From Tabrizicola piscis (GTDB lineage Bacteria > Pseudomonadota > Alphaproteobacteria > Rhodobacterales > Rhodobacteraceae): a stretch of 64,000 nucleotides of DNA. Location of the stretch: positions 1,780,001 to 1,844,000 of the forward strand of contig NZ_CP034328.1 in NCBI RefSeq assembly GCF_003940805.1. Direction: 5' to 3'. This document shows, piece by piece, positions 51,238 through 64,000 of this stretch. The notes beneath the pieces are model-generated. The model was not told the origin of the DNA and searched no databases. It was given only the letters and a program-made list of their open reading frames with translations. Position numbers and translations under genes: made by a program. Each line of letters begins with the position of its first letter. Position 1 is the stretch's first letter.

Positions 51238-51441
51238 GGCGCTTTGCGCCCCGGTCGCCATCTGTCGTCAGATCAAAGGATGATTTCAGGGATCGGGATT
51301 GCCTGAATTTGGTCGGAGCGAGAGGAACATAACCCGGTTTTGGTCAAGCCTTTGATGCGACTTAGATGATTGACACTACACATGTTTATGTGACCTGACT
51401 GTTCCGGCCAGGTGCTCCGGAGGTATTTTCTGGAGACCTAC
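51238..51441. other. Left boundary gap of the putative island
   Basis: About 200 bp between the core genes and the integrase, visibly less GC-rich than the preceding genes. It has a TTGACA-like hexamer at 51370-51375 near an ACATG-TTT-ATGT dyad-like stretch, possibly the integrase promoter. No tRNA or recognisable att core was found; any att repeat would need the right flank, beyond the window. Confidence 0.35.
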
Positions 51442-53250
51442 GTGAGCCATATTTCTCACCTGTCCAAGCGTGCTTCGGTATACTACGCGCGGATGGATGT
51501 GCCGACCGACTTGGTGCAAATCTTGAAGACCCAGACGCGTAAGCGCTCGTTGAAGACGAAGGACGAAGCTGAAGCGAAGCGCCGCCTCTGGCCGGTCATC
51601 GCCGCATGGCAAAAAGAGTTCGATGACCTGCGCGGACGACGCAACCTCATTGCGTCTGATCGGGAGCATGTAGTCTGGGATCACTACACGGCATCGCTAG
51701 AGCGGGATGATGCACAGCGGTCCCAAATACCGGGCGAGGCCGAGATCGAGGTCGCAAAGGCCGAGGTCTATCTGCGCGTCGAGCTAGGCGAGATTACCGG
51801 CATCGACCCGCTGGCTCTACTGGATGCAACTTTGGAGTTGCAGGTAGCGCAGGATGCCAGCGGCTTCTTCGCCCGCTCACGTAAGGTGAAGCTCGAGCAT
51901 ATGCGAGCGCACTTGGCGAAAGGTGAGACTGCACTGGTCGCGGCTGCCGTTGATGAATACCTGCGCGAGAAGGGTTTGCACATCGATCGCTCGACAGTCG
52001 ACTGGATATCTGTGGCGCGCCTCATGATGAGAGCTGAGATCGAGGCCATGCAGCGCGCTGATGAACGCGATCGCGGTGACTTCTCCGGCCAGCCGAGAGA
52101 CCCGATCGTCAAAGCACCAAAGCTAGACCGACGCCATCACACCGAAGCGGAGATTCCGGGAGAAAGCATCTTCGAGACGATGGAGGTGTTCAAACGGGAA
52201 AACCCACGCAACGTCTCGGCCAGCCGCATGAACGAATCCTGTCGCGCTATCGGCATCTTCATCGAGACCATCGGTCCAGGCTTTCCGATTTCCAAGGTGA
52301 ACAAGAAGCAGGTCCGCGACTGGAAAGCTTTGCTCATGAAGTATCCAGTGCGCGCGACCGAGATCGTCAAGTTTCGTGGCATGAACATCAGCCAGATCGT
52401 TGAGGCAAATGCCGTTCACAAAAAGTCTGTTCTGTCTGACCGAACCGTGAATCGATATCTATCCAGTCTGTCGGCCTTCTTCTCTTGGGCGGTATCCAAC
52501 GGCTTCATCAACGACAACCCCTGCTCTGGAATGTCCTTGGCGAAGGAGCGGCGAACCAAGACGTTGCCCTTCACGGAAGAGCAAATGAACACGCTCTTCA
52601 AGTCACCTCTATTTGCCGGCACGCAAAGTGACACGGAGTGGAGATACATCTCTCGGCCTGGCAACATGCTGATCCGTGATCACCGTTTCTGGGTGCCGCT
52701 GATCATGCTCTTCTCTGGAGCTCGTCCGGGAGAAATCGGGCAGCTCGCTGTCAGTGATGTGCGACAGGAACATGGCCACTGGACAATGCACATTACGACC
52801 GAAGGAGAAACTCACGGCGAAGGGAAGTCGGTCAAGACTGCGGGCTCCATGCGTGTAGTCCCGGTTCATCCAGAACTTCTGCGGTTGGGCTTTCTGAAAT
52901 ACCACGCCGATCGCGTGCAAGCTGGAGGCAAGCGGCTCTTTCCGGGTGCGGAACGGAATGAGCGTGGGCAGATGATGTCGGATTTCTCGCGCGAGTTCGG
53001 GAAGTATCTTACGCGGATCGGAATCAAGGTGGGCCGCGGCCTGTCCCTATACTCTTTCCGTCACGGTGCTGCTGACGCACTGCGCCGCGCGGGAAATCTC
53101 GACGATCAGTTCGGATTCATTCTCGGACATGCCAAGAGTTCGATGACCAGTCGCTACGGGATCATGCCACAGGCAATGCTTCAGCAACGAGTCGAGCTGG
53201 TGAACGCGAGTTCATATCCGGAGCTGAAGCTGGACCATCTTGCTGGTTGA
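51442..53250 (+). CDS. Tyrosine recombinase/phage-type integrase (DUF6538 N-terminal type)
   Basis: A 602-residue site-specific recombinase, longer than classic integrases (about 400). The N-terminus (SHLSKRASVYYARMDVPTDL) fits the DUF6538 fold, followed by an arm/core-binding region and a catalytic domain with Arg in FSGARPGEIGQL, His-x-x-Arg-like SFRHGAADALRRAG, the later GHAKSSMTSRYG box and terminal Tyr-containing segment. I chose a GTG with GGAGACC upstream; a TTG or ATG 30 bases earlier also stays in frame. It likely integrated this island. Confidence 0.9.
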   Translation: MSHISHLSKRASVYYARMDVPTDLVQILKTQTRKRSLKTKDEAEAKRRLWPVIAAWQKEFDDLRGRRNLIASDREHVVWDHYTASLERDDAQRSQIPGEAEIEVAKAEVYLRVELGEITGIDPLALLDATLELQVAQDASGFFARSRKVKLEHMRAHLAKGETALVAAAVDEYLREKGLHIDRSTVDWISVARLMMRAEIEAMQRADERDRGDFSGQPRDPIVKAPKLDRRHHTEAEIPGESIFETMEVFKRENPRNVSASRMNESCRAIGIFIETIGPGFPISKVNKKQVRDWKALLMKYPVRATEIVKFRGMNISQIVEANAVHKKSVLSDRTVNRYLSSLSAFFSWAVSNGFINDNPCSGMSLAKERRTKTLPFTEEQMNTLFKSPLFAGTQSDTEWRYISRPGNMLIRDHRFWVPLIMLFSGARPGEIGQLAVSDVRQEHGHWTMHITTEGETHGEGKSVKTAGSMRVVPVHPELLRLGFLKYHADRVQAGGKRLFPGAERNERGQMMSDFSREFGKYLTRIGIKVGRGLSLYSFRHGAADALRRAGNLDDQFGFILGHAKSSMTSRYGIMPQAMLQQRVELVNASSYPELKLDHLAG

Positions 53251-53280: not shown

Positions 53281-53841
53281 TCAGCGCCCACCAGGTTTGC
53301 CTAGCCTGGGCTTGAACTGACGCCAAACAGCGTCCTCAAGATCCTGCCTTAGGTCACGAGATTCGTTGTGCAATATCGCCTGCACTCGAACTCGGACCGA
53401 TCCTTCGCCTGAAGGACACCATCGAGAAAGGTGCATCGCATAGGTGCACCCAGACCGCGTAGTCCAAAGGTGCTCTCGTAGCCGCTTCTGAATATCCTCA
53501 GAACTGCCCACATAGAGCGTGGTCGAGCCCTCGGTGCCTTTGTTGACCTTCGGGCCATCGAAACCGCGATCTGAGTTGCTTGGGAATGCGCCCACAATCA
53601 GCGAGGCTGTATGATCATCATTTGCCGTGATATCGTATAGTGCGGGCTGCTTCTTCTGATAGGGCCAGATCTTCTCGGACAGCCAAGTTTTGATACCGGC
53701 CTCGCACACACCTTCGCGAATTTGACTTGGCGAGAAGGATGTTTCGACCACTTCTCCCAAATGGACCGCCTGAACTGCTTGGGAGCGCGCCATGAGACTT
53801 TCCGCCGTTGGCGCCCTAAGTGCGTCGTCAAAGATAGACAT
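53281..53841 (-). CDS. GIY-YIG-like nuclease-domain protein (restriction associated)
   Basis: A 186-residue protein. The C-terminal half reads TTLYVGSSEDIQKRLREHLW, a GIY-YIG core (L-Y-V-G..S, Arg, His), and ends LEDAVWRQFKPRLGKPGGR, with the C-terminal Glu and P-x-x-G-x-G of this fold. The N-terminal 60 residues contain a conserved-looking QIREGVCEAGIKTWL stretch of unknown role. Its ATG lies 1 base after the stop of the small upstream ORF. As the last gene of the vsr unit, it is a candidate nuclease of the DNA modification locus. Confidence 0.75.
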   Translation of the reverse strand: MSIFDDALRAPTAESLMARSQAVQAVHLGEVVETSFSPSQIREGVCEAGIKTWLSEKIWPYQKKQPALYDITANDDHTASLIVGAFPSNSDRGFDGPKVNKGTEGSTTLYVGSSEDIQKRLREHLWTTRSGCTYAMHLSRWCPSGEGSVRVRVQAILHNESRDLRQDLEDAVWRQFKPRLGKPGGR

Positions 53842-53842
53842 C

Positions 53843-53995
53843 TTATATCTCCAGCGGCGGCAACCCTCGGACGATCTTCATCGTCTCCAGGCTTACGGTG
53901 ATCACGCGGCACAGTAGGTCGAAGGGGTAGCGCGGGTCGCCGACGGTTTCGTTCGCGGGGTTCACGATACCGCTGAAGCGTGAGCAATTTTCCAA
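53843..53995 (-). CDS. Small 50-codon ORF between vsr and the GIY-YIG gene, or remnant of a larger gene
   Basis: A TTG codon lies 1 base after the vsr stop and begins a frame of 50 residues with SGIVNPANETVGDPRYPFDL and ending VSLETMKIVRGLPPLEI. Its TAA lies 1 base before the GIY-YIG ATG, so the three frames are packed end to end. The composition looks like coding sequence. No family is recognised with certainty and no ribosome site is evident. It could be a real small gene, or the conserved C-terminal tail of a deleted protein such as a methylase or helicase. Confidence 0.45.
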   Translation of the reverse strand: MENCSRFSGIVNPANETVGDPRYPFDLLCRVITVSLETMKIVRGLPPLEI

Positions 53996-53996
53996 G

Positions 53997-54461
53997 TCAG
54001 CGACGACTATCCCCTAGACCCTCAATCTCGATACGGTCAAGTGCTGGTTCGGCGGTGAGCCAGTCTATCAACGTCGCCGCAGCTCCTGCAGCATCCACCT
54101 TCAACGCACACTCCCACACCACTGCAACGCGCCAACCTTCGTTTCGAAGAGTCAACTGAGTTGCCCGATCCCGCGCCACGTTCGCATCAAACTTCGAAAG
54201 CCAGAATTCTGAACGTGACTTCGGCGTTGCGGCATATCGACAGTAAGAGTGCCTATGCCAGAAACAACCATGCACGAAGATCACCGCGTTCCACTTCCTG
54301 AGGACGATGTCGGGCGACCCGGGCAGATCTCGCTGGCACAGACGGAACCTGAAGCCGCGTGCATGGAGAGACCGCCGAAGCAGCAGCTCAGGCTTCGTGT
54401 CACGACTACGGATGCGCGACATGACCTTCGAACGGGTCTGACTGTCCATGATGTCCACCAT
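53997..54461 (-). CDS. vsr: Very short patch repair endonuclease (Vsr)
   Basis: A 154-residue nuclease that nicks 5' of T in T:G mismatches made by deamination of 5-methylcytosine. It starts MVDIMDSQTRSKVMSRIRSRDTKPE, includes LPGSPDIVLRKWNAVIFVHGCFWH (catalytic Asp in PDI, with the zinc-site His/Cys pattern H-x-x-x-C) and ends normally for Vsr (about 150). The longer frame upstream lacks similarity. It diverges from the cytosine methyltransferase, the standard association. Confidence 0.95.
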   Translation of the reverse strand: MVDIMDSQTRSKVMSRIRSRDTKPELLLRRSLHARGFRFRLCQRDLPGSPDIVLRKWNAVIFVHGCFWHRHSYCRYAATPKSRSEFWLSKFDANVARDRATQLTLRNEGWRVAVVWECALKVDAAGAAATLIDWLTAEPALDRIEIEGLGDSRR

Positions 54462-54552
54462 GCGAAGACATATAGTGCCATATGCGGTGGATTGGACCTG
54501 GTGAAAGGCGGTCGACATCCTGTATTCCCTTCTGAGACTTCGAGGAGAAGAC

Positions 54553-56043
54553 ATGGTCCGCAGCTACGCCATCATCGACCTGTTCGCAGGCCCGGGCGGG
54601 CTGGGCGAGGGCTTTTCCCGCGCCGGTCAGGAGACGGCGACGCCGATGGGCATCCGCGTCTCGGTCGAGATGGACGATCACGCCATCGCGACGCTCCGCC
54701 TGCGCTCCTTTCTGCGTTCCTTCGACGCCGGCTTCCCCCACGAATATTACGATGCGCTGAACACCGGACGCGATCTGCCGCGGTGGGACGAGCTGCACCC
54801 CGCAGCCTGGCGCAGGGCTTGTGATGAGGCGCGACAGCTGGTTTTGGGGCAGGAGGGCGTCTTCGAGGAGCTGGTCCCGATCCTCGATCAAGCCCGAGAC
54901 GGGATGCATGGTGACACCATCCTGATAGGTGGCCCTCCTTGTCAGGCCTACTCTCTTGCCGGGCGGTCACGAAATCTGGGCAAGTCTGGATACGTTCTTG
55001 AGGATGATGGGCGCCACTACCTCTACAAGGAATACGTCCGAATCCTGACCCGCCTTCGCCCCGCGGCCTTCGTGATGGAGAACGTGAAAGGCATGTTGTC
55101 CAGCCGAGTGGATGGCGGCGGCATCTTCGATCGGGTTCTTGACGACCTGGAGGGTGCGGCGGATGGTTACCGGCTGCTGCCGCTCGCCATCGCCGCAGAC
55201 GTCGGTGTTGGTCGCAATGCGGCCCGAGACTTTATCGTGCGGGCGGAAGACCACGGTATCCCCCAGGCGCGCCATCGGGTGATAGTAGTCGGGCTCCGTT
55301 CGGACTTAGCGCGGGGACAGCCCGAGCGGGGACCGCTGCTGCTGCCCTCCGAGACTGTGACGGTCGCCGAGGCACTGCGCGGCCTTCCACCGCTGAGAAG
55401 TGGGCTTTCGACCGGCGACAGCGTCACAGACTGGCAAAAGGTAGTCAGAGACCGCGCGAAGAGCATCGCCGATCTCTCCTTCCTTCCCGACGGCGTGAGG
55501 TCGGTGGCGCGGGAGGTCGCCGACACGGCCGCGCTGCCGGAGCATCGTTCCAGTAGCATCCCGACGAATGATCAACCCCCAACATCCCTATCGGACTGGC
55601 TCCAAGATCCAAGACTTGCGAAGGTGCTGCATCATGAGACCCGCGGTCATATCGCTGACGACCTTGGAAGATACCTGTTCTCTTCGGCGTTCGCCCTGGC
55701 GGAGGATCGCGCGCCCAAGCTTTCAGAGTTCCCCTTCTGGTTGCTGCCCGAGCATCGCAACCGCGAAACCGGCGCATTTGCGGATAGGTTCAGAACGCAG
55801 GTAGGCAGTCGGGTTGCGACCACGGTGACGAGCCATATCTCGAAGGATGGTCACTACTTCATCCACCCGGACCCCTTCCAGTGCCGGTCCCTGACAGTGC
55901 GGGAGGCGGCTCGGCTTCAGACCTTCCCCGACAACTACTTTTTCTGCGGTCCGAGGACCAAGCAGTATCATCAGGTCGGAAATGCAGTTCCGCCCTACCT
56001 CGCCTTGCAGATCGCGAGAGCAGTCCGATCTCTGCTGCCCTAG
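54553..56043 (+). CDS. DNA (cytosine-5-)-methyltransferase (Dcm type)
   Basis: A 496-residue m5C methyltransferase. The family motifs are in order: I AIIDLFAGPGGLGEGFS (11-16 FAGPGG), IV IGGPPCQAYS (catalytic Cys130), VI FVMENVKGM (176-178), VIII PQARHRVIVVGLRS (238-242), IX LTVREAARLQTFP and X YHQVGNAVPP near residue 474. The target recognition region, about residues 250-430, is larger than in minimal enzymes. The ATG follows GAGGAGAAGAC. It converges with the AIPR operon (3 bases between stops). Sequence specificity cannot be read. Confidence 0.95.
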   Translation: MVRSYAIIDLFAGPGGLGEGFSRAGQETATPMGIRVSVEMDDHAIATLRLRSFLRSFDAGFPHEYYDALNTGRDLPRWDELHPAAWRRACDEARQLVLGQEGVFEELVPILDQARDGMHGDTILIGGPPCQAYSLAGRSRNLGKSGYVLEDDGRHYLYKEYVRILTRLRPAAFVMENVKGMLSSRVDGGGIFDRVLDDLEGAADGYRLLPLAIAADVGVGRNAARDFIVRAEDHGIPQARHRVIVVGLRSDLARGQPERGPLLLPSETVTVAEALRGLPPLRSGLSTGDSVTDWQKVVRDRAKSIADLSFLPDGVRSVAREVADTAALPEHRSSSIPTNDQPPTSLSDWLQDPRLAKVLHHETRGHIADDLGRYLFSSAFALAEDRAPKLSEFPFWLLPEHRNRETGAFADRFRTQVGSRVATTVTSHISKDGHYFIHPDPFQCRSLTVREAARLQTFPDNYFFCGPRTKQYHQVGNAVPPYLALQIARAVRSLLP

Positions 56044-56046
56044 GGG

Positions 56047-58131
56047 TCAGGCAGCCGTCTCCTCTTGCCCGAAACCCTCTCCTTCAAGTTTGGCAAGTGC
56101 ATCGATCGCGACCTTGATCTGCCCCTCGGTCGGAAGGCGCTTGGGCATCTGCGCGCAAATCCCCAGAACACCGAACTCCGTCTGGTTCAGCAGCTTTTTC
56201 TCCCGGCCCCAAGCGCGCGCTTTTGCCCAGAAGGGACCACCCAGCTCAAAGACCCGCACCTGATCTGTCAGATCGTCCGTGAGTTTCTGATCGTTCCTAC
56301 CGACCTTGGTCTCTTCCTGAACCTCAGCCGGATCGATCAGCAGATCCGAGTAGTCTTCCGGATAGGACAGCTTCCGCTTGCGGAACTGCTCCCAGCATGC
56401 TTGGTTCTTAGCCCATTCGCTCATGTTGCGCACGCCCGGCGGAGGCGAGGTGATGGCATCCTGCGCCTCGGCCGCAGCGACTAGCAGGGCTTCCTGCAAG
56501 ACTGCGGGCACGTCCTGGGCGCGCCAGACTTGGGACAAATCCACGACCTTGTCCAAGGCCTCGGCATCAGCCGCGACTTTTGCGATAGCATAGGTCACGA
56601 TGTTGGCGCGATAGCCGCCCTCATACCATTCCTGCGCCGAGACCAGACGCTCCAACTTGCGGAAGATGATCGCCTTGGAGATCAGTCGGCGGAACCAGCC
56701 GTCGTCGATTCTGTCGCCGTTCTTGCCCCAGACCTTCTCGATCGACTTCGCGAAGGCGCCGAAGTTCTTCTGCGCGCCCTGACTGACCGTGTCGGGGCGG
56801 CCGCGCCAGGTGTTCTCGAACTTGGCGAGGTCGGTCTTGGTGAAGAACTGGGTCTTCGGATACTCCGCATCCCAGACCTTGCGCTTCGCGTCGGTCAACT
56901 TGCCACGTTCATCGGCAAACTGGCCGCGCGCGCGCTCGTAGAACCATTTCGTCTCGCGATAGCCATGTTCGCCCGCCGGCGCGAGGATCTTGCGCGACAG
57001 CTCCTGGATGCGGACGTGGAAGGGATGGTTGGCGAAGAAGTCGGCGGCGTTGACCTTGTTCTGGCTGTTGGCGAATTCCGAGATCAGCGGAACTACCGAT
57101 TCGGACAGCACTGCTGGCACGATGCTGAGCTTCATCTGGACGAAAATGTCGTCCATCCCGCGTCCAGCGGCCTTCGCAGCCGCATGGAGCGAGGCGGTCG
57201 TCTGGCCGCCATTGACGATCTGGAGGTTGTCGGCGGACATAAGCAGCAGACCATCTTCGGTCCGCACGACCTCAACCTTGTCCGCCGTTGCAGCAAGCCC
57301 GTTGTTGTAGCTGAGGAACATGTGCGGCTCATCGAGGATCGTCTTACGGATGCCCTTGTTCACGCCTCCCTTGGCCTGGAGGAAGCTGCGGACGTTGGAC
57401 TCGAGGAGGCGCGCGCCCCAGACATCGTAGATCGCGGCCAGCTGGCGTCCTGGAATGACGGCAATGTAGCTCTCAAGTGCAGCATCCGAGCCGGAGGCTT
57501 TCAGGACAGGGACCCCAGCGCCGAACTCCTCGGCGAAGCGGATCGTCAGTTCCGCCCGCGCCTTGCCCTGCTCGGCATAGGCCTTCAGCCGCTTCAGATC
57601 CCAGACGTTGTAGGTAACCGGCTTACCGGCAATCGATCCCGCGGGCATGGCATCTACCGTGGCGCGGTTGTCGGAATTGGTGACAAAGATCAGCTTGATC
57701 TTGGCGATGCGGGTCCAACGGGTGGCGATCATGTCTGCTAGCCCGGCACCCAAGCTGGTCTCCTCCAGCGCGTTGCGAAAGCTGTCCTTGCGGGCATGCC
57801 GGAGAAATTCGACGAGTTTTTTGAACTGCGCCTTGAGGTCCGTAGCGTTCGTCGATCGAACTCCCTCGCTGAGCTGGAAATCGCACAGGATCAGCGACAG
57901 GATGTCGTCCCCGTTCGCGGGATCTCCTCCCGAACCGGTAGCCTGCAGATTCACCCCTTTTTCGCCTGTGCCGCGGTAATGCGCATAGTCCGCCTGCTCA
58001 ACCTCGCCCGCCTCGGTGAGGAATTCTCCCACCCGTTCGAAGAAGGCTTCTTGGACGTAGGTGCCTAGGGCATCCGCGCTTCCTTGGATCTGGGCGATGA
58101 AGTCGCGGTGGAATTCCTCAAGATCAGACAT
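56047..58131 (-). CDS. AIPR (abortive infection phage resistance) family protein
   Basis: A 694-residue protein of the AIPR family, long linked to phage-abortive systems and to paraMORC/Z1 loci. Visible features: an N-terminal region with DDILSLILCDFQL, VTYNVWDLKRL, RLLESNVRSFLQ (241-252), FLSYNNGLAATAD (273-285), the hallmark ADNLQIVNGGQTTASLH (300-316), and IISEFANSQNKVN-type ISEFANSQNKVNAADFF. The first 150 residues may hold a PD-(D/E)XK-like fold. The ATG has AAGGAG 8 bases upstream and overlaps the preceding stop (TGATG). Last gene of the four-gene operon. Confidence 0.9.
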   Translation of the reverse strand: MSDLEEFHRDFIAQIQGSADALGTYVQEAFFERVGEFLTEAGEVEQADYAHYRGTGEKGVNLQATGSGGDPANGDDILSLILCDFQLSEGVRSTNATDLKAQFKKLVEFLRHARKDSFRNALEETSLGAGLADMIATRWTRIAKIKLIFVTNSDNRATVDAMPAGSIAGKPVTYNVWDLKRLKAYAEQGKARAELTIRFAEEFGAGVPVLKASGSDAALESYIAVIPGRQLAAIYDVWGARLLESNVRSFLQAKGGVNKGIRKTILDEPHMFLSYNNGLAATADKVEVVRTEDGLLLMSADNLQIVNGGQTTASLHAAAKAAGRGMDDIFVQMKLSIVPAVLSESVVPLISEFANSQNKVNAADFFANHPFHVRIQELSRKILAPAGEHGYRETKWFYERARGQFADERGKLTDAKRKVWDAEYPKTQFFTKTDLAKFENTWRGRPDTVSQGAQKNFGAFAKSIEKVWGKNGDRIDDGWFRRLISKAIIFRKLERLVSAQEWYEGGYRANIVTYAIAKVAADAEALDKVVDLSQVWRAQDVPAVLQEALLVAAAEAQDAITSPPPGVRNMSEWAKNQACWEQFRKRKLSYPEDYSDLLIDPAEVQEETKVGRNDQKLTDDLTDQVRVFELGGPFWAKARAWGREKKLLNQTEFGVLGICAQMPKRLPTEGQIKVAIDALAKLEGEGFGQEETAA

Positions 58132-59078
58132 CACGAACTCCTTGCGGGCGATAGAACCTCGTCCGCAACTTCGAAGGGTGCGCAGGCGGCCAGGCTGACC
58201 GAATACTTCAGGTCATCCACTCCCTCAGGCAGAGGGGGGACAATGCGAGGAAATTCTTCGGTGACCTGGAAGATGCGCGCATGACCGGTTTTCCAGACGC
58301 GGTGGGAGTCGACTTGTTCGGATAAATAGCCGGAAGCGGCCAATCGTTGCTCCCACAGGCTGGCTGCTGCTGGGTCACCACCGAAGCACGCTGCAGTGGC
58401 GTCGACATGATCCGCAAGCGTCATCCCTTGATCCGCCAGCGCCGTGTCGACATCGATGACGCGTAGATAGAGTGCGGAGCCGTCTACGGTCGCCAGCTGG
58501 GCAGCAGAGGAGATGGTGATCTTCGGGTGGGCGGCTCCACGTCGCGCCTTCACCTCGACATGCATGTCCGCGAGCTCGAAGTCCTTGGGACTGCCCGTAG
58601 GGCCCATCCAAGCTCCGATTGCCGTCAGCGCACCATGACGATCGACCAAGTCGCGCAGGACTGCCAATTCGGCCACCAGGCCTCGTTGCTCCTCGATCGA
58701 CAGCCCTTCGACCACCCCCGCGCGGAGCAGGTGGTGCCAACGCATCGTCCGCTGGATTGCCCGAGAAAGGACCGAGCCGGCTGTCTCGGCCCGCTCGGCC
58801 GCAGTGACCACGTCGCGACAAAGCGTCTCGAAGATCTCGACCTGACTACGATCTTCAAGGCTGATGCAGAAGATCTCTCGATTGTCGACGAGGCGATAGG
58901 ACAGCGACAAGTTTCGGAGGATGGGGATTGGATGCACCGTCGGTGTCCCTTCCGGCACTCTGAGCAGCAGCCCAGGAAGACCGTTCGGCATCACAGCCCA
59001 GAAGAAATCGTAGCGGCCTTCACTGTCGACACGACGTCCGATGTCGGGCGCAAGCCCCGCCCAAGGGGTGTCATTCAT
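58131..59078 (-). CDS. PD-(D/E)XK motif protein (DUF4420 type)
   Basis: A 315-residue protein with a restriction-like nuclease core. The signature is E137 (GLVAELAVL), then PTGSPKDFELADMHVEVKARRG, with Asp166 and the E175-V-K177 pair, fitting the D-(D/E)xK pattern. The upstream region (WAVMPNGLPGLLLRVPEG and SLSYRL..IFCISLED) is the family's N-terminal domain. The ATG at 59078 overlaps the Z1 stop by 8 bases; its stop overlaps the AIPR start by 1. It is the candidate cleaving nuclease of the system. Confidence 0.88.
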   Translation of the reverse strand: MNDTPWAGLAPDIGRRVDSEGRYDFFWAVMPNGLPGLLLRVPEGTPTVHPIPILRNLSLSYRLVDNREIFCISLEDRSQVEIFETLCRDVVTAAERAETAGSVLSRAIQRTMRWHHLLRAGVVEGLSIEEQRGLVAELAVLRDLVDRHGALTAIGAWMGPTGSPKDFELADMHVEVKARRGAAHPKITISSAAQLATVDGSALYLRVIDVDTALADQGMTLADHVDATAACFGGDPAAASLWEQRLAASGYLSEQVDSHRVWKTGHARIFQVTEEFPRIVPPLPEGVDDLKYSVSLAACAPFEVADEVLSPARSS

Positions 59079-61800
59079 CGAGATTGGCTCCCTCGTCGAG
59101 GTCCGGCTCGCCATAGAGCTCGCGGAACTTCTGGGTGTTGACGACATATTCGACACGCTCGTCCGGCGTGGACGAGACTGGCAAGCTCATCCCCCAGCCG
59201 ACGACCAGCGATTTCGGGAAGTTCCAGGGAAGCGTGCGAGGAGAGCCGTCAGCTTTCTCGTAGTTGTCGCGGATGTTTATGATCTGGAGGATGAAAAGGG
59301 GCTTGGTCCGGACCTTGCGATAGATGCTGTCCGGGTAGTTCACAGGGCCCTCGGCGGGTTTGCCTTCGATCTTCCGGTAGGCTGCTTCGGCAGCAGCCGC
59401 GGCGGCTGGGTCAACTCCGACTTTCTCCACTCCGCGCGAGGCAATCCTCGCCTTTTTTCCGCTGATGGAAAGCATATCTCGCGACAGATCGTCGAGGTCG
59501 ATCCTGCGCACTTGGGGGCCAATCCGCCAAGTGCCATGCTCGAACGCCGGGAGATCGTTGCGGACGCTGGCGACCAGCACGTCCCAGTCGGCCAGTTCAT
59601 CCTCCTTCCTCGCGTTGAGATAAGCTCGTATCGGCCCGGGCTGGGTGAGGAACGCCGCCTCGTGGTTCCTCCAGCCGATCAGAAACCGATCGATCAGATC
59701 GACGGATATACCCGAAAGGAGCATCCCACCGCTTACGGGTTGAGCAGATGCTGCCCCATGACCCGACGCATCAAGCTGGTCAAGGAAATCCTTCGCAAGC
59801 TGCATGTTTGCGTCGATGTCCCTGAGGCCGAGCTTTGCAGTCTCCACCCAGGCGTTGGAAAGGCCCACCTGGATCACGGTCTGGCCCGCTCCCATCTTGT
59901 TGCGCGCTGTCACCATGAGCGCGGTCGGATGGCTTCGGACCGCCAGACCAAAGTCGGCAGGCGTTAACTTCGCATTCTCCATGTTCTTGAGTTCGCGGTG
60001 CAGCTCTGCGGTGGCCTCGGCGATGTGGGCATACCAGTCGATTGCGTCGAGCGGCATCCAGATCCGGCAGAGATCCTCGTAACCGCCCCGGTAGCCGAAC
60101 CACCGGCCCATCTGCATCAACGTGTCATACATCATGGTATTTCGCAGGAACCAAGTTATGGTCAGACCCTCCAACGTCAGCCCGCGCGACAGCGAGTAGC
60201 CACCGACCGCGATCACCGTCTGGCCGAGATCGCCCGTCGCCGCATAGTCGAGACCGTTGCCTCGGCTGTTTACCTCCACCACCTTTGCCGCAGCGATCGC
60301 GTCATAGAGAGCTGCCTGGATCTCGGCCCAGTCAAACCCGCAGTCCTGATACTCCGCCTCGAATATCTCGCGCAGAGCCGCAATTTCCGGGTCAGCCAAA
60401 CCCGCCCTGCCCAGAGAAGCATTCACGCGCACAGCATTCTGCATTGCGACGAGACGCTCATGGATCCGGTTGCGGAGTTGTCCCTGAACATCCGTGAACC
60501 GGCTCGCGTTGACCAGCATCGAGCAATGTTTGGAACCCTGTCCACGCAGGTTCCGGATGGCCCGAGCGACCAAGAAGGCGCGCAGGGCTCGGATAAGGGA
60601 CGGCGGCAGCTCGGTGATGTTCTGCGTGATCTGATGCTTGATGGGCAGAAGATCCCCATTGTCATCGATCTGGCGTAGCCAGGTGGGCGCACCGTCCTCG
60701 GGAAGTCCATCGATGAAGACCTTGCTGGCGCCAAAGTAGTTCGTAGGAGCGTCGAGCCCGATGATGAAGTGGCGCGGGAAAAGATCCTCTTTCAGCGCGT
60801 CGTCATACTGGTCGGGATCGACGAAGATGTTGGCGAACGGAGTCGCCGTGTAGCCGACATAACAGCTGCGGTGGAAGGTCGCGAGCAGATCGCGAATCTG
60901 CGCGTTGATCTTCGTCACCTCATCTTTGGCGTATTTCGTGTTGATTGAGGCGTTGTCCGCCTCGTCATCGATCAGCAGCATGGGCTGATCGATCATCAGG
61001 TCATCACCCTTGGCGCTGTTGTCGCGCAGCCAGTCGAGGAGGTTCTTGAGCGTGCTGGGGTTCTTCTTGATAACCAGGACAACGGGCACCTTGTAGGAGT
61101 CGATCTGACTGGTGTTGGTGGAGGCCGTCTCCTTGTGGAAGTCGCGCTTTGCACTGGTCAGGCTGACCGGCACGTTGCGATCATCGAAGAGACCTACGCC
61201 GATCGAATGGTCGCCCTTCTTTTGACCGGCCTTCGCGGTATCACGGCCGATGAAACCCTCGTCGATCCGCGCCTGCGTCTGGTTGCGAAGATTGTTGTGG
61301 ATCCCGGCGATGACGATGATCAGTCGGTATCCGGCATCGGCGGCCTTGCAGATCAACCCAGCATAGTTCGCCGTCTTTCCGCTCTGCACATGGCCAACGA
61401 CCATCCCCCGGCGGTCCCATTTCTCCTCAAGTCTGGGGTTTCCGAGCCGCGAGAGGATTCGGTCGGTCACGAAATCCGTCGAGGTGACGACATCCTGCGG
61501 CAACCCGGTCTTGAGAAGAAGCTTCTTGTAGCGCTCCCAGTAGAACGGTTCGATCGAGGCCTTGGCATCGTCGAGCCAAGGGCGGAAACCTACGTCGTCC
61601 ACCATTGCGCCAAGGCCCATCGTGACACCCAAGCGAGCCTCAATTTCCTTGGCAAGCCGTTCCAGCTCGGCAGGTGCGGCGTCGATGTTCAACGCGCCGT
61701 TCATCGTGGCGATAAAGGATCGCAGCTCGGCGCCGGTCTTCTTCTGATGCGCAAGAGATTGCGATACCACCGAGTCAAGATGGGCGATCTGAGCAGTCAT
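59071..61800 (-). CDS. Z1-domain protein (SF2-like ATPase/helicase)
   Basis: A 909-residue protein with a Z1 helicase-like core: Walker A VVGHVQSGKTANYAGLI (136-143 GHVQSGKT), Walker B-like LLIDDEADNAS (276-282), SF2 motif III-like YVGYTATPFANIF (316-324), and the Z1 hallmark GRWFGYRGGYEDLCRIWMP in the middle. The N-terminal 130 residues and C-terminal 250 residues are less characteristic. It starts 4 bases after the GHKL ATPase stop, following GGAAGG. In related loci Z1 proteins partner the GHKL ATPase and a nuclease, probably moving on DNA. Confidence 0.92.
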   Translation of the reverse strand: MTAQIAHLDSVVSQSLAHQKKTGAELRSFIATMNGALNIDAAPAELERLAKEIEARLGVTMGLGAMVDDVGFRPWLDDAKASIEPFYWERYKKLLLKTGLPQDVVTSTDFVTDRILSRLGNPRLEEKWDRRGMVVGHVQSGKTANYAGLICKAADAGYRLIIVIAGIHNNLRNQTQARIDEGFIGRDTAKAGQKKGDHSIGVGLFDDRNVPVSLTSAKRDFHKETASTNTSQIDSYKVPVVLVIKKNPSTLKNLLDWLRDNSAKGDDLMIDQPMLLIDDEADNASINTKYAKDEVTKINAQIRDLLATFHRSCYVGYTATPFANIFVDPDQYDDALKEDLFPRHFIIGLDAPTNYFGASKVFIDGLPEDGAPTWLRQIDDNGDLLPIKHQITQNITELPPSLIRALRAFLVARAIRNLRGQGSKHCSMLVNASRFTDVQGQLRNRIHERLVAMQNAVRVNASLGRAGLADPEIAALREIFEAEYQDCGFDWAEIQAALYDAIAAAKVVEVNSRGNGLDYAATGDLGQTVIAVGGYSLSRGLTLEGLTITWFLRNTMMYDTLMQMGRWFGYRGGYEDLCRIWMPLDAIDWYAHIAEATAELHRELKNMENAKLTPADFGLAVRSHPTALMVTARNKMGAGQTVIQVGLSNAWVETAKLGLRDIDANMQLAKDFLDQLDASGHGAASAQPVSGGMLLSGISVDLIDRFLIGWRNHEAAFLTQPGPIRAYLNARKEDELADWDVLVASVRNDLPAFEHGTWRIGPQVRRIDLDDLSRDMLSISGKKARIASRGVEKVGVDPAAAAAAEAAYRKIEGKPAEGPVNYPDSIYRKVRTKPLFILQIINIRDNYEKADGSPRTLPWNFPKSLVVGWGMSLPVSSTPDERVEYVVNTQKFRELYGEPDLDEGANLDE

Positions 61801-61804
61801 TCGT

Positions 61805-63280
61805 TCAACCTTCCACAATATCTTCAATCAGCTGCCGGACGCTGTCCCGGTGACGGTGCAGCGGCTCGACCGAACATAGCGCGTTCACTACGTCCTTTCC
61901 TGCCATGCCCGTCGACAGAAGCGTCCGCACTGCCTGTTCGACCGATTCAGCGATATCCACGAACTCGGCAGGATCAGCCTCCACGCTTTCGGCTGCACCT
62001 AGCATGTCAGCGTGCAGTGCCCCGACAGGCAACCCTGCACCGAGGAGCGTGATGCACGTCCTGAACCCGTGCTGAAACTCCTCTGGAAGAGACGACATGA
62101 ACCCGGCAATCGCCGGATGATCCCCATTCGGTCGGTAGATGATTGCGCCGTCCTTCTGAAACCTGCTCCAGAGAGGAAGGTTGGCCTGATCGACCAGCTT
62201 GCGGCCGCGTCGCTGATACGTCCGCTTGGAGGTGCCCTGCATCCGCTCCACGATCTTTCGCAGGCGCTCGCGAACCATCGGTGGCATCTGAGCCGAGGCC
62301 TTTCGGACGTCGATCTTCCAGTCGGCATCCATGGTGTTGGGGATGTCGACCCGGACTCGTGACAGCTTCGTCAACTCTGTCGCTCGGGCGAGGCCGAGCC
62401 AGCCGCCCGCGATGATCAACCGTCGCTCACGGTAGATGTAGAAGCCTTGCGAGCGAAGATGTCCCTCCGGTCCACCGACCTCCTCCCATTCCATCTTCGA
62501 CATCCGGCTGTGATGCGGAACGGTGAAGGTCTGCGTAACGACTGTCCCGTTCGCGAGGGAGAGCAACTCCTCGTCGTCGATCTGAGTCGCCTTGTTGGCG
62601 GAGGCGAAGGGATCGATCGGCGATAGCTTGCGATCGTTCAGTATCAGTCTCAACTGGGGCCGCGTCCCCTCCATGTAGCGGTGGAAGCACAACCGAAGGT
62701 GCTGTTCGGCCTCGGCCAAAGCAGCGTTGATCTCGGCAGAGCGCTTCGTGCCGTCGTGACGGTAGCTCGCCGCGAGTCGATCAAGCTTCCGCCAGATGAC
62801 CACGGTCCCGGTCGCACCAATGCGGTCAATGCCGGGGGCATCAGACGTATCGTCCTCCAAGAGGACCTCCCAGCGGTTGGTCCGAGAAACTTCGTCCAGA
62901 TCCCAAGTTGCCACCGAAGTCACGCCATCCTTTCGCGTAGCGACGGTGAGCTGGCGGCACTGCGAGAAGCTCGCGCTCTTCAGCCCTAGGCCGAACCTGC
63001 CGAGGTCATGGCATTCGCGGGGGTCGAGCGGGTTCCTGGAGCCAGGCCGCATCGCCTCGATCAATTCGTGTTCGGACATTCCCGCCCCATCGTCGACTAT
63101 CGCGATCCAAGGCGCATCCGAGATGGTGTCGGCGAGGATCTGGACCAACCCCGCTCCGGCGGTGATCGAATTGTCGATAACATCCGCCATGGCGGTGGAA
63201 AGCGTATACCCGAAATCGCGCATGCCCTCGATCAGAGAGGCGGCGTGCGGGGTGGCATCAGCCGTGCGACGTTGGCTCAT
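61805..63280 (-). CDS. GHKL ATPase of the paraMORC/MutL-like type
   Basis: A 491-residue protein with the Bergerat ATP fold: N-box STAMADVIDNSITAGA (27-43), G1 box AIVDDGAGMSE (60-70), G2 box DLGRFGLGLKSASFSQC (91-108), and a later TGTVVIWRKL lid segment, followed by an S5-like region and an alpha-helical C-terminus. The position of the catalytic Glu in E-x-x-D-N is Asp here (DVIDN), as in several paraMORC proteins. It begins the four-gene operon. It resembles the prokaryotic relatives of MORC that are found in restriction-modification loci. Confidence 0.9.
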   Translation of the reverse strand: MSQRRTADATPHAASLIEGMRDFGYTLSTAMADVIDNSITAGAGLVQILADTISDAPWIAIVDDGAGMSEHELIEAMRPGSRNPLDPRECHDLGRFGLGLKSASFSQCRQLTVATRKDGVTSVATWDLDEVSRTNRWEVLLEDDTSDAPGIDRIGATGTVVIWRKLDRLAASYRHDGTKRSAEINAALAEAEQHLRLCFHRYMEGTRPQLRLILNDRKLSPIDPFASANKATQIDDEELLSLANGTVVTQTFTVPHHSRMSKMEWEEVGGPEGHLRSQGFYIYRERRLIIAGGWLGLARATELTKLSRVRVDIPNTMDADWKIDVRKASAQMPPMVRERLRKIVERMQGTSKRTYQRRGRKLVDQANLPLWSRFQKDGAIIYRPNGDHPAIAGFMSSLPEEFQHGFRTCITLLGAGLPVGALHADMLGAAESVEADPAEFVDIAESVEQAVRTLLSTGMAGKDVVNALCSVEPLHRHRDSVRQLIEDIVEG

Positions 63281-63620: not shown

Positions 63621-63638
63621 GCGTTGATCGATCAACGG
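63621..63638. promoter_or_regulatory. Palindrome 2 upstream of the defence operon
   Basis: GCGTTGATCGATCAACGG contains the perfect 16-base palindrome CGTTGATCGATCAACG and repeats the arm of palindrome 1, with centres 64 bp apart. Candidate operator. Confidence 0.45.
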
Positions 63639-63880: not shown

Positions 63881-64000
63881 TCATCCATACGGCGTCCCCA
63901 TCTGCCAGATCGGTGGAAAAGCCGCGAGACCGTCGCTGGATGGTTCGGCCACTTTCTGCTTCGCCATCGCTTCCTTGGTGCGCTTGGAGATTTCCTCTGC
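63881..64000 (-). pseudogene. Partial serine recombinase/resolvase-like tail (runs off the right edge)
   Basis: The last 39 codons of an ORF entering from the right edge read AEEISKRTKEAMAKQK, which matches the end of the catalytic domain of serine resolvases/recombinases (pattern E-x-x-x-I-S-x-R-T-K-x-A-L/M). The following residues (VAEPSSDGLAAFPPIWQMG) do not continue the family and the frame stops, so the gene looks truncated or fused by rearrangement. The upstream part is outside the window; therefore intact or not is uncertain. Confidence 0.5.

Follow-up and report, generated by a model that had tools for sequence, protein, structure and literature searches.

Within a 64,000-nucleotide stretch of Tabrizicola piscis DNA (contig NZ_CP034328.1, positions 1,780,001 to 1,844,000), hereafter called the window, lies a multi-gene locus that our analysis, made up of sequence and model evidence, suggests to be a mobile anti-virus cluster of a recently recognised type, in which, across related bacteria, four parts stay fixed while the methyltransferase Dcm and one DNA-motor domain, the CTD, are traded independently. 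Its main genes, with their likeness to the MZA system discussed below, are the following.

61805..63280, minus strand: GHKL ATPase of the MORC family (MzaB-like), 491 aa, with the motif GFYIYRERRLI at residue 279
59071..61800, minus strand: core gene with the SF2 helicase motif DTLMQMGRWFG at 559
59161..59880, minus strand: segment nested in the frame 59071..61800
58131..59156, minus strand, likely start 59078: DUF4420 PD-(D/E)XK nuclease (MzaD-like), with E163, D192 and E201-x-K203 conserved
56047..58134, minus strand: AIPR protein (MzaE-like), 695 aa
54553..56043, plus strand: C5-cytosine methyltransferase (Dcm), 496 aa, the first exchangeable unit
53997..54461, minus strand, likely start 54461, frame open from 54554: Vsr endonuclease (TIGR00632)

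The sequence-only reading had described these genes as a single restriction or defence-type locus, and their company elsewhere bears this out: where at least 2.5 kb of flank was available on either side (68 loci), Dcm is present in all 68, Vsr in 59 and the complete set of four core genes in 67. The constant linkage of Dcm, mostly together with Vsr, fits DNA discrimination better than it fits an improbable alternative that draws on the AIPR family name (PF22879) and on a hypervariable, sensor-like domain. One may wonder whether Dcm and Vsr are an orphan methylation unit in their own right, with an MZA core as a mere neighbour, as their weak evolutionary coupling to it might suggest, and as might locus L137, which has both Dcm and Vsr although it lacks GHKL and carries shortened versions of DUF4420 and AIPR. 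The 68 of 68 linkage, set against 0 to 8 C5-methyltransferase match rows in each genome of the genus, with 9 of the 32 having none, makes this very improbable.

The evidence for exchange comes from 203 close pairs of loci, that is, pairs with all four core identities at or above 70%, whose CTDs were classed by identity as different (<60%), middle (60-70%) or same (at least 70%). The CTD is different in 112 pairs (Dcm same in 60, different in 5, middle in 7, none seen in 40), middle in 26 (Dcm same in 10, different in 8, middle in 2, none in 6) and same in 65 (Dcm same in 45, different in 3, middle in 1, none in 16). CTD exchange is commoner than Dcm replacement among close cores, and the trees agree with the pair counts. 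Within one core cluster, three clades, L067+L068+L071 (support 99.5), L068+L071 (support 95) and L064+L139 (support 93), are rejected by the CTD data with p values of 2e-5, 1e-6 and 3e-6, respectively. Two groups tried in core cluster 12 are uninformative, since the core data do not support them as clades in the first place (p 0.012 and 6e-4 on core). Counted on the core tree of 87 loci, cluster 3 needs a minimum of 7 CTD class changes and 0 of Dcm, cluster 12 a minimum of 5 and 3, and the whole tree at least 50 changes among the 46 classes of CTD and 27 among the 23 of Dcm. The nearest relative of the window locus is L014 (core 86-96%, CTD 87%, Dcm 91%), and the clade of the window itself holds no clear-cut recent swap (window against L013: core 62-84%, CTD 62%).

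Ordinary restriction systems require the nuclease side to recognise the very site that the methyltransferase reads. Here no matching core change was found for the replacement of Dcm, which is seen in 16 pairs involving L075, L130 and the group L048/L051/L076/L089. Either Dcm itself acts as the specificity subunit, or many methylation patterns pass as self with the core. A classical site-specific arrangement, in which the core would read the motif of Dcm through a domain of its own and differing target domains would read that same motif, is improbable. Dissimilar target domains can indeed read similar motifs, and there are windows in GHKL and AIPR that go with Dcm similarity; yet the alignment score of the Dcm target-recognition region, relative to self, is 0.14-0.27 where Dcm differs (16 pairs), 0.47-0.99 where it is the same (115 pairs) and 0.34-0.56 in between (10 pairs), and no core region follows Dcm in the focal swaps. 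A scan for such a region peaked at GHKL 361-400 and AIPR 501-580, candidates that were not adopted: L075, L069 and L041 show no local switch towards the donor clade, and L041 is in places less like that clade than its own relatives are.

The serious rival is that Dcm itself locates the unmethylated site and brings in the core, much like a methyltransferase or HsdS part in BREX or Type I systems, so that a Dcm swap would shift modification and restriction together. It predicts both the invariable Dcm linkage and exchange without core change, and we still consider it rather unlikely: with respect to the core, Dcm is found in more than one place and orientation, and the swapping of the CTD is left unexplained. 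In the partner proteins, the CTD swap is tracked by no window beyond +0.28, an argument for a CTD that looks outward. We favour, at a probability of about one in two, the reading in which the core would accept many methylation patterns as self, because the CTD diversifies separately and independently, as would be expected of a part that faces the invader. The proposal of a methylation-guarded system made from the sequence alone is the best reading here too. Several points weigh against the reading that we favour. The pairs are not independent of each other, and the class cut-offs and the tested clades were chosen after seeing the data. Dcm replacement rests on few loci (16 of the 141 close pairs with Dcm on both sides), the combination of same CTD and different Dcm is found in three pairs only, and Vsr is missing from 9 of the 68 loci. 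Across an 81-locus set, corrected for core similarity, Dcm similarity follows some GHKL and AIPR windows (both up to +0.45), and a single motif might yet be read by unlike Dcm target domains. The CTD, for its part, might serve structure or assembly and merely tolerate change, and the published descriptions of CglI, in the excerpts used here, give its CTD no recognition role (PMC4267653, PMC5737866).

The motifs of the GHKL ATPase are intact in the aligned set (N37, D63-G65-G67, G94-G99-K101), and GFYIYRERRLI answers to the MORC S5-domain motif GhXhhpXXRhl, which 15 of 2000 shuffles contain; since 89 of 91 loci carry it, the exceptions L065 and L079 having contig-cut GHKL frames, the label paraMORC given in the sequence-only reading is not supported. 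The helicase motif DThhQXuRhFG occurs in 91 of 91 loci. That reading had also counted four possible nuclease folds, which was overstated: the E-D-ExK set of DUF4420, a fold taken from the Pfam name, is complete at 97% or more, and Vsr keeps its conserved residues and scores 142 bits against TIGR00632 (cut-off 98), while the N-domain of AIPR has no ExK-type set conserved at 97% in the aligned set, and the GIY-YIG-like protein is a passenger. The motifs of Dcm are intact as well, its PCQ, ENV and QxRxR residues being conserved at 97% or more in the aligned set.

The MZA-like nature of the core had escaped the sequence-only reading. The MZA system, reportedly mzaABCDE and attributed to Gao et al. 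in 2020, shares with the present locus homologues of MzaB, C, D and E in one operon and in the same order (PADLOC 290, 458, 56 and 260 bits). However, the NCBIfam equivalog cut-offs are not reached (MzaB 332/850, MzaC 530/1500, MzaD 101/420, MzaE 344/1050), scans of 8 or 9 proteins around the core gave no sigma-factor (MzaA) match, and here Dcm is always linked, usually with Vsr. A Dcm-bearing form had already been published, according to the excerpted text of Miller et al. 2022 (PMC9523054), as a putative 'Type II' system, which the sequence-only reading had missed as well; the MORC protein associated with it there is present here, and as to its associated transcriptional regulator, no regulator match lies next to the core in the window. 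As excerpted, Iyer et al. 2008 (PMC2292703) describe a third MORC operon type with an SF2 helicase bearing DThhQXuRhFG, an E-D-ExK protein of the restriction endonuclease fold, Dcm, Vsr, AIPR and MORC, all of them shared with the present locus; modular exchange is not reported in those excerpts. CglI, like NgoAVII a point of comparison, is described as consisting of three genes, its PLD-B3 R subunit recognising the site (PMC4267653, PMC5737866), and MORC, DUF4420 and AIPR are not among them; conversely, none of the 9 proteins scanned here matches an R subunit with a PLD nuclease and a B3 domain.

The locus is carried by a mobile element with an integrase and tRNA-Pro attachment (att) repeats, whose further features are listed below in window coordinates, those past 64,000 lying beyond the window end.

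51306..51326: attL, 21-nt copy of the tRNA-Pro(CGG) 3' end, a direct repeat identical at 20/21 nt
51412..53250, plus strand: tyrosine integrase (DUF6538 + Phage_integrase), 612 aa
53281..53841, minus strand: GIY-YIG-like protein, 186 aa, passenger outside the module
53843..53995, minus strand: small open frame, about 50 codons
63557..63574: palindrome copy 1, upstream of the core operon
63621..63638: palindrome copy 2, upstream of the core operon
68612-68632: attR matching attL, inside the tRNA-Pro(CGG) gene
68616-68692: tRNA-Pro(CGG)

The repeat pair brackets 17.3 kb, from 51306 to about 68632. In sister genomes L153 and L155 (two of the four regions fetched), the left flank lies at most about 130 bp from tRNA-Pro, with the right flank adjoining; in L152 about 1.1 kb separates the flanks, and in L154 the 3.9 kb past the left flank yielded no tRNA-Pro and no right flank. 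From the repeats and these flanks it follows that the window end cuts through the element. The GIY-YIG gene, which adjoins the integrase and had been listed as part of the locus, does not belong to it, being found beside 1 of 80 loci and, among 390 genomes of the order, in that of the window and a single other. Its family is small and rare (14 homologues; three named cases, all alphaproteobacterial), and the C-terminal half, which ends in GKxGG, is strongly conserved. Of the loci searched, L014 alone has a clear counterpart of the small frame.

The near-perfect palindromes, of the type GCGTTGATC-N-ATCAACG and spaced 64 bp, may be an operator pair or a resolvase site; these two are the only places in the 4.39-Mb genome with their exact pattern, which was also absent from the other loci in the set at the time of the search. 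Beside them, inside the element, a 187-aa open reading frame, serine-recombinase-like by eye and possibly truncated, runs from 63881-64000 on to 64444, and further cargo towards attR (65271-68382), also named by eye, comprises a membrane protein, a response regulator and a histidine kinase (both stretches from L095). Elsewhere, contigs stop 182-905 bp after AIPR in L024, L029, L032 and L034, which suggests a repeat there, and the locus DNA of L071 (record Enemella evansiae, Actinomycetota) is 91-93% identical to a Roseovarius metagenome-assembled genome, either a recent cross-phylum transfer or contamination.

In DISARM, a methylation guard is combined with a non-specific core, and we propose to liken the present locus to it. 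The best PADLOC match of the methyltransferase is DrmMII, although DISARM matches are limited to this protein among the 8 scanned, with none to the DrmA/DrmB core. It is tempting to hypothesize that Dcm methylation would guard the DNA of the host, under a core that would take many methylation patterns as self, and that the CTD would face the invader, diversifying separately from Dcm.
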